A stretch of DNA of 64,000 nucleotides from Rhodothermia bacterium (GTDB lineage Bacteria; Bacteroidota; Rhodothermia; Balneolales; Balneolaceae). The translations under genes were made by a program, and so were the position numbers. The stretch lies in contig JAUICM010000002.1 of the NCBI GenBank assembly GCA_030427885.1, positions 434,001-498,000 on the forward strand, read 5' to 3'. The notes beneath the pieces are model-generated. The model was not told where the DNA came from. It did not search any database and worked only from the letters and a program-made list of their open reading frames with translations. Positions 2,845 through 6,413 of the stretch are shown here, piece after piece. The number at the start of each line of letters is the position of its first letter. Positions within the stretch are counted from its first letter, which is position 1.

Positions 2845-2919
2845 ATGAAATTTTCAAAACCAAATACCGCTTGTAAGCCCGCATGTACTTGTATGTGTAT
2901 GTGCATGATGTGCACCTGA
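2845..2919 (+). CDS. Cys/Met-rich leader peptide of a transcription attenuator (24 aa)
   Basis: A short ORF from ATG 2845 to TGA 2917-2919. Its 24 residues contain six Cys and five Met, and residues 14-23 read CTCMCMCMMC. I do not read it as a functional protein but as a sensor: ribosomes would stall in this run when Cys-tRNA or Met-tRNA is poorly charged. The stop codon abuts GAAGGGCTT (2918-2926), which can pair with the ascending arm of the terminator downstream. Lys11-Pro12 (AAGCCC, 2875-2880) can pair with the same segment, as in classic leaders. No Shine-Dalgarno sequence precedes the ATG, which is usual in this window. The sensing function is inference from sequence. Confidence 0.8.
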   Translation: MKFSKPNTACKPACTCMCMCMMCT

Positions 2920-2991
2920 AGGGCTTAGGTATATAGTTTTTAAGTAAACATAAAAAAGCCCTTTTGAATGCAATATCAGAAGGGCTTTTTT
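2875..2991 (+). promoter_or_regulatory. Transcription attenuator with mutually exclusive RNA hairpins
   Basis: Four segments are visible. Segment 1 is TAAGCCC (2874-2880) inside the leader ORF. Segment 2 is GAAGGGCTT(A) (2918-2927), overlapping the leader stop codon. Segment 3 is the A6-GCCCTTTTG stretch (2952-2966). Segment 4 is CAGAAGGGC followed by six T (2977-2991). Segments 1:2 give 7 pairs, 2:3 give 9 (one wobble) and 3:4 give about 15 pairs with a U-tract. A stalled ribosome over the Cys/Met codons would mask segment 1 and free 2 to pair with 3 (antiterminator). A ribosome finishing at the stop would cover segment 2 and allow the 3:4 terminator. This is the trp/his leader logic applied here to Cys/Met. 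Confidence 0.75.
2952..2991 (+). terminator. Intrinsic terminator of the Cys/Met attenuator
   Basis: Arms 2952-2966 and 2977-2991 form a stem of about 15 pairs around a 10-base loop (2967-2976); the descending arm ends in six T. The A-rich ascending arm also makes it usable by transcripts from the other strand. It may serve era read-through as well, although it lies 218 bases beyond era. Confidence 0.85.
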
Positions 2992-3037
2992 ATTGGGATT
3001 GATAATCTCAGACGTTCTTTAAAAATCATATTGCATT

Positions 3038-3156
3038 CTCATTAAGAAAGGTGGAGGGATCAGGTCCTGTGAAGCCTTGGCAACCGTTTCGGGTTAAACC
3101 GAAGAAAGGTGCTACATCCTGCTCAGTGTAAGTAAAGCCACACTGGGAAAGATGAG
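3038..3156 (+). ncRNA. SAM-I (S-box) riboswitch aptamer
   Basis: The segment shows the SAM-I core: P1 CTCAT (3038-3042) with ATGAG (3152-3156), then AGGTGGAGGGA, a kink-turn/P2 region ending in GCCTTGGCAACC, the conserved AAGGTGCTACATCC, a variable P4 hairpin and the closing GGGAAAGATGAG. The class binds S-adenosylmethionine and normally turns off methionine genes. The 3' P1 strand can alternatively pair with the terminator region: 3150-3166 against 3182-3198 gives 13 Watson-Crick and 2 wobble pairs with a 2-base internal mismatch. This is the antiterminator expected when SAM is absent. Confidence 0.95.
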
Positions 3157-3178
3157 TTCGACAAAGTGTTAGTGAAAC

Positions 3179-4661
<1,483 letters not shown>

Positions 4662-4723: not shown

Positions 4724-5260
4724 ATGAGTACTATAACAACAGAAATCAACCAAATTGACCAACGGCTGAACGAGACGATCTCGAATGTGATATCGCATGT
4801 CAGAGAAAATCCGGTTGACAAAGATGTCACATTTTCCGTGGATTCTACACTGGAACGCGGCTTTCGGTCAGAGATCAATGTCAGGAATTTTCAATTCATT
4901 GCTGATGAACCCGAAAGTCTTGGCGGGGAAAATGAGGCTCCAAATCCGGTGGAATATGTATTGGGAGCTCTCGCCTCTTGCCAGGAAATCGTGATCAAAG
5001 CATATGCTGGTCAACTCGGTATCAATTTGAATTCCATCAAAGTTGAGGCCTCCGGTGATCTGGATCTGCAGGGATTTTTTAATCTTTCGGATGAGCGCCC
5101 CGGATTCAACAATGTGCGATATAAAACCGTAATTTCCACAGACGAAACCGATCCGGTTAAGCTCCAGCTTTTGAAAAATTTTTCAATTGAACGATGCCCT
5201 GTGTTAGACATAATCTCGAATCCCGTTCCAGTAAATGGCGAAGTCGTGTATGTCAGCTAG
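4724..5260 (+). CDS. OsmC-like peroxiredoxin family protein
   Basis: A 178-residue OsmC/Ohr-family protein. The two family cysteines are present, Cys86 in ALASCQE and Cys158 in ERCPVLD, at the spacing used for thiol reduction of organic hydroperoxides. The PNPVEYVLGALASC helix is the family hallmark. About 30 N-terminal residues precede the domain and are predicted helical. Lying between metY and metX, it may protect or handle a reactive sulfur intermediate (persulfide or hydroperoxide) made during sulfide assimilation; this is an inference from position. Hairpins flank it on both sides, so its mRNA level may differ from its neighbours. Confidence 0.88.
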   Translation: MSTITTEINQIDQRLNETISNVISHVRENPVDKDVTFSVDSTLERGFRSEINVRNFQFIADEPESLGGENEAPNPVEYVLGALASCQEIVIKAYAGQLGINLNSIKVEASGDLDLQGFFNLSDERPGFNNVRYKTVISTDETDPVKLQLLKNFSIERCPVLDIISNPVPVNGEVVYVS

Positions 5261-5357: not shown

Positions 5358-6413
5358 ATGAGCGATCCTAAGAAACTCTCATTACATACTACATTCATCA
5401 CAGAATCAGGACATGAACTTCATGATCCTGAATTTGCCTATCATACCTGGGGGAAACTAAATCAGGATAAAGATAATGTGATCCTGATCTGCCATGCCCT
5501 TACCGGAAACTCTGATGCAAAAGATTGGTTTTCCGGTTTTTTTGCTGATAACAGTTATGTTGATCTAAGTAAACACTTTGTGATCTGCATCAATGTTCCG
5601 GGTAGTGATTATGGCTCCACCGGGCCATGGTCCGTAAACCCTCGTACCGGAAACCCATATCAAAATGACTTCCCGGTATTAACGATTCGTGACATCGTAC
5701 GATTTCAACAACTTCTCCTTGATGTACTTGAAATCAAAGGAATTGAACTGGTGATCGGGGGATCAATGGGTGGTATGATAGCCCTGGAATTCTCAATCAT
5801 GGATAACAGAATACAAAAAGCATGTCTGATCGCAATGGGTAAGTCACATTCCGCATGGGCCATTGGAATCAGTAATACACAGCGACAGGCTATTTATGCA
5901 GATAAAAACTGGAATGATGGTTGGTACTCAAAAGACAAGCCTCCTGTTCAGGGACTTTCTGCTGCGCGTGCTATTGCAATGATCAGCTATCGCACCCCTC
6001 AAAATTATGAGAATAAATTCGGACGTGACTTCAACAATGAAAAGCAGATCTTTCAGGTTGAGTCCTATCTGGAGTATCAGGGGAAAAAGTTAACCGATCG
6101 CTTCGATGCGCTCTCGTATGACCGCCTCACCAAATCGATGGATACCCATGATATTTCCCGGAGCAGAAGTTCTTTTAAAGAAGTTCTGGGATCTCTTGAA
6201 ATCCCCCTGCTCGTTATTGGTATAGATACTGATATTTTGTATCCACCCTACGAACAGAAGGAACTGGCTGAACTGGCACCTAATGCTGAATACAGGGAGA
6301 TCAGCTCAGAATACGGGCATGATGCTTTTTTGATTGAGTTCGATCAGATAAACAACTTTCTGAGAGAGTTTAATGAACTAAGCAATGCCGGTATTATCGC
6401 AAAAGAAAATTAA
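5358..6413 (+). CDS. metX: Homoserine O-acetyltransferase
   Basis: MetX transfers acetyl from acetyl-CoA to L-homoserine, making the substrate of MetY. The 351-residue protein is an alpha/beta hydrolase. The nucleophile is Ser136 in IGGSMGGM, the acid is in IDTDILYPP, and the base is the His of EYGHDAFL. LICHALTGNSDA and GSDYGSTGPWSVNP are family landmarks forming the substrate tunnel. ATG 5358 follows a T-rich terminator-like element. Together with MetY it forms the direct-sulfhydrylation route to homocysteine, so the operon bypasses cystathionine. Succinyl-CoA use cannot be fully excluded from the sequence. Confidence 0.94.
   Translation: MSDPKKLSLHTTFITESGHELHDPEFAYHTWGKLNQDKDNVILICHALTGNSDAKDWFSGFFADNSYVDLSKHFVICINVPGSDYGSTGPWSVNPRTGNPYQNDFPVLTIRDIVRFQQLLLDVLEIKGIELVIGGSMGGMIALEFSIMDNRIQKACLIAMGKSHSAWAIGISNTQRQAIYADKNWNDGWYSKDKPPVQGLSAARAIAMISYRTPQNYENKFGRDFNNEKQIFQVESYLEYQGKKLTDRFDALSYDRLTKSMDTHDISRSRSSFKEVLGSLEIPLLVIGIDTDILYPPYEQKELAELAPNAEYREISSEYGHDAFLIEFDQINNFLREFNELSNAGIIAKEN

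Follow-up and report, generated by a model that had tools for sequence, protein, structure and literature searches.

We have identified, upstream of metY in a member of the Balneolales, what is very probably a transcription attenuator in which ribosomes respond to the charging of Cys- and Met-tRNA, placed in series before a SAM-I riboswitch. It lies in a 64,000-nucleotide stretch of DNA (the window) from an assembly that groups with Balneolaceae, whose named relatives are Gracilimonas, Fodinibius and Rhodohalobacter; Balneolales are salt-loving bacteria. If this reading is right, a whole bacterial order gates the enzyme that forms homocysteine and cysteine by two successive RNA sensors, the first reading tRNA charging for both sulfur amino acids and the second reading SAM. 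Such an arrangement would constitute a natural two-input circuit whose truth table could be tested, and one in which the ORF that feeds a classical attenuator of the intrinsic-terminator type is leaderless.

Organization of the metY leader region

All features described here lie on the forward (+) strand of the window. The era gene, which precedes metY in many relatives, ends at 2734 and is followed by a predicted promoter (TTGCAT-17-TAAGCT; 2809-2837) and by a 24-codon leader peptide ORF (2845-2919) encoding MKFSKPNTACKPACTCMCMCMMCT, for which 75 non-redundant homologues are available. Downstream of the ORF is an intrinsic terminator, T1 (2956-2991), and then a boxA-like element, CGTTCTTTAAAA (3013-3024). 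Between T1 and metY sit the aptamer of a SAM-I (S-box) riboswitch (3036-3158; Rfam RF00162, 70.6 bits with a gathering threshold of 44.4) and the intrinsic terminator of that riboswitch, T2 (3179-3216). The metY gene (3278-4606; TIGR01326, 685 bits with a cut-off of 495) encodes O-acetylhomoserine aminocarboxypropyltransferase/cysteine synthase, an annotation that covers both homocysteine and cysteine formation. It is followed by a gene for an OsmC-like protein (4724-5260; NF041052, 83 bits, under its cut-off of 95) and by metX, which encodes homoserine O-acetyltransferase (5358-6413; NF001209, over its cut-off).

Comparison across the order Balneolales revealed the same module order, namely promoter, Cys/Met ORF, T1, boxA-like GTTCTTT, S-box, T2 and metY. 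The module occurs throughout Balneolaceae, either 5' of metY or 5' of a small gene and metY, and is also found in other families of the order. In Fodinibius and in L011, metY is separated from the S-box by an additional gene (L011, L028, L030, L031, L032, L034 and L041), the product of which resembles, by eye, a CoA-binding-domain protein.

The promoter has the same spacing in most relatives, and its -10 element ends 7 nt before the leader ATG, from which the transcript should begin at the start codon or 1 nt before it. In most of Balneolaceae a TTGnnn-17-TAnnnT promoter ends 6-8 nt 5' of the start codon, a proximity that makes a leaderless mRNA probable across most of the family. When the regions were scanned without distance bias, the best promoter lay at this distance from the start codon in 45% of leaders versus 3.5% of shuffles. 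The predicted 5' untranslated stretch is ~20 nt in Fodinibius and about 30-50 nt in other families, and in species without the leader a promoter lies immediately 5' of boxA instead. A further promoter candidate 3' of T1 (TTGATA-16-AAAAAT, 2999-3026) was rejected; it was no commoner than in shuffles and was not visible in L004 and other close relatives inspected by eye.

Conservation of the leader ORF and its alternative pairings

The peptide MKFSKPNTACKPACTCMCMCMMCT has Cys at codons 10, 14, 16, 18, 20 and 23 and Met at codons 17, 19, 21 and 22. Cys makes up 18.6% and internal Met 14.3% of the residues in the 75 non-redundant leaders, with Cys present in all 75 and internal Met in 74. The start column is occupied exclusively by ATG, GTG or TTG, with one exception among 74 rows, and the Cys codons are mixed (TGT 199, TGC 101). 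Since the leader ORFs were chosen in part by their Cys/Met content, the same picking rule was rerun on controls. The 55 homologous regions averaged 8.0 Cys and Met codons, compared with 2.0 for dinucleotide shuffles and 2.3 for the opposite strand, and at least 6 such codons were found in 52 of the 55 real regions versus 2 of 550 shuffles. Regions upstream of metH riboswitches, put through the same control, yielded 0-4. The leader ORF and its Cys/Met richness are thus confirmed to be far beyond chance. Elsewhere in the genome, the sole other match to TGYATGTGYATG, sought as a second Cys/Met run, falls within a large ORF.

Across the 75 leaders the Cys/Met codons are kept while the flanking sequence, the codon order and the terminator sequence vary. 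The number of Cys residues ranges from 1 to 7 per leader, and the Cys/Met order drifts (CCMCMCM, ICMMCMCC, MSMSMSMMSC, CSKQLCKQC, CMMLC), which indicates that codon identity rather than a fixed peptide is maintained. The leader of L118, MKKVMSMSMSMMSCLGG, keeps Met and has Ser in place of most Cys, with only Met at the effective stall positions; L121 is the reverse, with a leader containing Cys only. The former represents a natural test of Met versus Cys sensing.

Four RNA segments can form alternative pairings around T1. Region 1 (TAAGCCC, 2874-2880) can pair with region 2 (GAAGGGCTT, 2918-2926), which overlaps the stop codon and can alternatively pair as an antiterminator with region 3 (AAGCCCTTT, 2956-2964), the 5' arm of T1. 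Region 4 repeats GAAGGGCTT (2979-2987) and with the U tract of T1 extends over 2979-2991. An earlier sequence-only reading of this DNA had placed the 24-codon ORF, both copies of GAAGGGCTT, AAGCCCTTT and AAGCCC of codons 11-12 (2875-2880), and every one of these coordinates was right. It had also proposed the 1:2, 2:3 and 3:4 pairings of trp/his-type leaders, among which 2:3 and 3:4 were borne out in nearly all leaders and 1:2 was supported in some clades only. That reading was incomplete: it included neither the SAM riboswitch in tandem nor the boxA-like element, and it overlooked both the leaderless start and the helix that connects the T1 loop with the base of the riboswitch.

In the window, the T1 region (2932-2994) folds at -24.3 kcal/mol (z -7.1). 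The longer segment from 2845 to 2994, whose fold contains both 1:2 and 3:4, reaches -47.7 kcal/mol, compared with -29.0 +/- 3.7 among shuffled sequences (z -5.1). T1 is present in 73 of the 75 leaders, 22-44 nt past the stop codon, with a mean hairpin energy of -16.3 kcal/mol. The 2:3 duplex has a median energy of -15.1 kcal/mol versus a shuffled mean of -8.0, and reached p<0.05 in 67 of 73 leaders. Homologous upstream regions show changes in the 2:3 pairs that keep the pairing: one position occurs as G-C, A-U and U-A in 20, 19 and 1 distinct combinations, respectively, and others switch between A-U and C-G or between C-G and G-C. When region 2 and region 3 were swapped among leaders, own pairs scored 6.88 and foreign pairs 6.45 of 8, a modest gap because the cores are conserved within clades. 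Support for 1:2 is clade-dependent. It reached p<0.05 in 23 of 73 leaders by a codon-shuffle test, being strong in the window and in several clades (for example, -25.4 versus -15.2 in L014), and in one clade the paired segments change together (TCTGCAC/GTGCAGA, TCTGTAC/GTACAGA and CTGTAT/ATACAG in L055, L069 and L062).

The ORF and T1 are both absent from genus g19 (L025, L026 and L029), L115 and L234, all of which retain the promoter, a small hairpin, GTTCTTT and the S-box. No case of T1 kept without a Cys/Met ORF was seen among the Balneolales relatives compared. The sequence-only reading had named a terminator kept after loss of the ORF or its Cys/Met codons as evidence against an attenuator, and the opposite was found, with ORF, codons and T1 lost together. 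Sequence and comparison in this way show which elements make up the module, in what order they stand and how they are conserved, as well as the 2:3/3:4 pairing and the joint loss of ORF and T1, and the presence of a codon-rich ORF, a 3:4 terminator and a 2:3 antiterminator gives the leader the sequence-level features of a trp/his/thr-type attenuator.

Proposed mechanism, rival explanations and known attenuators

The effect of a stalled ribosome was modeled by folding the window RNA with the segment covered by a ribosome masked, its A-site being set at a chosen codon. With the A-site at codons 10-21, the RNA present until region 4 appears is predicted to fold best as the 2:3 hairpin (-20.6 to -10.3 kcal/mol). 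Once the A-site has moved to codons 22-23, or the ribosome to the stop codon, the predicted fold no longer contains 2:3 and T1 is formed. Without a ribosome, 1:2 and T1 coexist in the predicted fold. Among the 73 leaders, a stall at one or more Cys codons would leave region 2 free in 72, and a stall at one or more Met codons in all 73. In this model, ribosome position reproduces a trp/thr-type switch.

We infer that the ORF is translated, that ribosomes stall within it and that its outcome is combined with that of the riboswitch, as follows. Transcription would begin at or beside the ATG of the 24-codon leader. Upon shortage of Cys or Met, the leading ribosome would stall in the CMCMCMM run, and either shortage should count. 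Region 2 would then be free to pair with region 3, blocking T1, and RNA polymerase would read through to the S-box, where it would terminate only at high SAM. When both amino acids are ample, the ribosome would reach the stop codon inside region 2 and T1 would form, and in the absence of translation 1:2 pairing would likewise leave T1 free to form. Expression of metYX would therefore call for a shortage of Cys or Met together with low SAM. The proposal that the leader senses charging of Cys- and/or Met-tRNA, made in the sequence-only reading, is supported by the conservation of Cys/Met codons and T1 together across the order.

Other explanations of the ORF and T1 were weighed against this one. 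Cu(I) is bound by peptides rich in Cys and Met, and regulatory uORFs that contain Cys and act in copper control are known, so the peptide could instead bind copper or another ligand, or arrest its own ribosome, and in that way switch T1; the MK..QNI N-terminus conserved inside Balneolaceae would fit such a role. Against this, the N-terminus is not kept in other families, leaders differ freely in how many Cys/Met residues they have (1-7 Cys) and in what order, and the codons lie at positions from which a ribosome stalled at the A-site would leave region 2 unpaired. The regulated enzymes, moreover, form homocysteine and cysteine and are not metal-handling proteins. We consider nascent-peptide arrest or metal/thiol sensing quite unlikely on these grounds. 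It is highly improbable that T1 is simply the terminator of era and the ORF fortuitous. Although era lies on the same strand, ends at 2734 and is found upstream of metY in many relatives, a promoter separates it from the ORF, T1 follows the leader even where a gene other than era is upstream, the ORF and T1 vanish together, and no such ORF was found in the shuffle and opposite-strand controls. Since T1 accompanies the ORF even at loci away from era, its reading as the era terminator was rejected.

A third possibility is that the leader acts mainly on initiation at the downstream start, on stability, or on Rho/boxA access, with T1 being secondary. Three members of the sister family f2 (L205, L206 and L207) lend this some weight, with a Cys/Met ORF ~25 nt before the S-box, a stop codon 10-11 nt before boxA and no visible intrinsic terminator, as does the boxA itself, which is invariant and persists without the leader or T1. 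Within the window's own clade, however, T1 occurs in 73 of 75 leaders with a matching 2:3 antiterminator, and we regard this explanation as unlikely there. Because they have the Cys/Met ORF without a visible intrinsic terminator, L205-L207 must use a second mechanism, for which control of boxA access by the ribosome is a candidate. The start region of the ORF is complementary to its end over 11 bp in L205 and L207 (ATTATCTCACA with TGTGAGATAAT and TTTAAATCACG with CGTGATTTAAA, respectively), and with one mismatch in L206.

Among known systems, the thrL leader of E. coli thrABC (RF00506) is by analogy nearest in concept to the Cys/Met attenuator. It has alternating Thr and Ile codons and competing antiterminator and terminator hairpins, and thus shares the use of two alternating regulatory codons; it differs in its amino acids and genes and in the lack of a riboswitch in series. 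To our knowledge, no leader combining Cys and Met has been described before. The leader itself has no Rfam match over threshold, the window region scoring 25.2 bits against Thr_leader (RF00506; gathering threshold 55) and 21.2 bits against Bacteroid-trp (RF01692; threshold 49). The latter is an amino-acid leader RNA of the same phylum and differs in being specific to tryptophan. At cysS of Rhodobacterales, the uORFC-8-2 motif combines a conserved tandem pair of Cys codons with two stems and an intrinsic terminator, and tRNA-Cys attenuation has been proposed for it (PMC8632094); unlike the leader described here, it has Cys only, lies upstream of cysteinyl-tRNA synthetase in Alphaproteobacteria and has no S-box. 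Polycysteine leaderless short ORFs are reported to control sulfur genes in mycobacteria (Canestrari 2020). Such ORFs have been predicted without an intrinsic terminator being found (PMC1262725), and have been described as a case of translation attenuation (PMC13236596). They resemble the Balneolales leader in their leaderless start and Cys codons and differ from it in having neither Met alternation nor a riboswitch. The S-box copy (RF00162) found here is complete, but has a distinct Cys/Met attenuator and a boxA-like element ahead of it. A literature search that reached few subscription papers turned up neither a Cys plus Met leader nor an S-box arranged in series with a leader attenuator. What is new relative to known attenuators is that Cys and Met alternate, that an S-box follows in series and that a boxA is embedded.

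The boxA-like element and helix H5

The core of the boxA-like element, GTTCTTT, follows T1 and is invariant in 71 of 73 T1-bearing leaders, within flanks that are near-random. It is also found in most of the rRNA leaders or spacers seen from Balneolaceae; the rRNA leaders of relatives were used because searching the assembly of the window itself for 16S gave no match. A NusB family gene is present in the genome. We read GTTCTTT as a boxA from these sequence matches. Almost all Balneolales have it 5' of the metY S-box, and it also precedes S-boxes without a leader ORF in several other Bacteroidota (L208, L211, L212, L209, L219, L220, L225, L229 and L232). That it is a general part of S-boxes was ruled out, since the metH S-boxes of Balneolaceae do not have it. 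On rRNA, boxA is known to protect against Rho (PMC4807359, PMC5725501), and by analogy a simple role here would be to shield the long untranslated riboswitch leader from Rho. A boxA before an S-box raises the separate question of Nus factors on riboswitch mRNAs in Bacteroidota. Descriptions of boxA together with riboswitches were not found in the literature searched, which likewise covered few subscription papers.

The loop of T1 (GAATGCAATAT, 2966-2976) is complementary over 11 bp to ATATTGCATTC (3028-3038), which abuts helix P1 of the riboswitch, and the two strands covary in relatives. This helix, H5, can form solely after read-through of T1. Its position 8 occurs as U-A, C-G, A-U and G-C across relatives, and the RNA that it encloses folds with z -3.1. 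By the swap test, own pairs scored 8.62 and foreign pairs 8.10 of 9, a gap kept modest by the same conservation of cores within clades as for 2:3, and H5 is lost in one member (L012). We suggest tentatively, as a possibility that falls well short of probable, a three-layer leader of ~430 nt, in which the Cys/Met attenuator, a boxA that recruits NusB/S10 after read-through and the SAM riboswitch would be physically joined via H5, the freed T1 loop pairing with the riboswitch base and passing the outcome of tRNA charging to it. In the read-through RNA, region 4 (GAAGGGC, 2979-2985) can also pair with boxA (GTTCTTT, 3014-3020) in the loop closed by H5, which may be trivial purine/pyrimidine complementarity.
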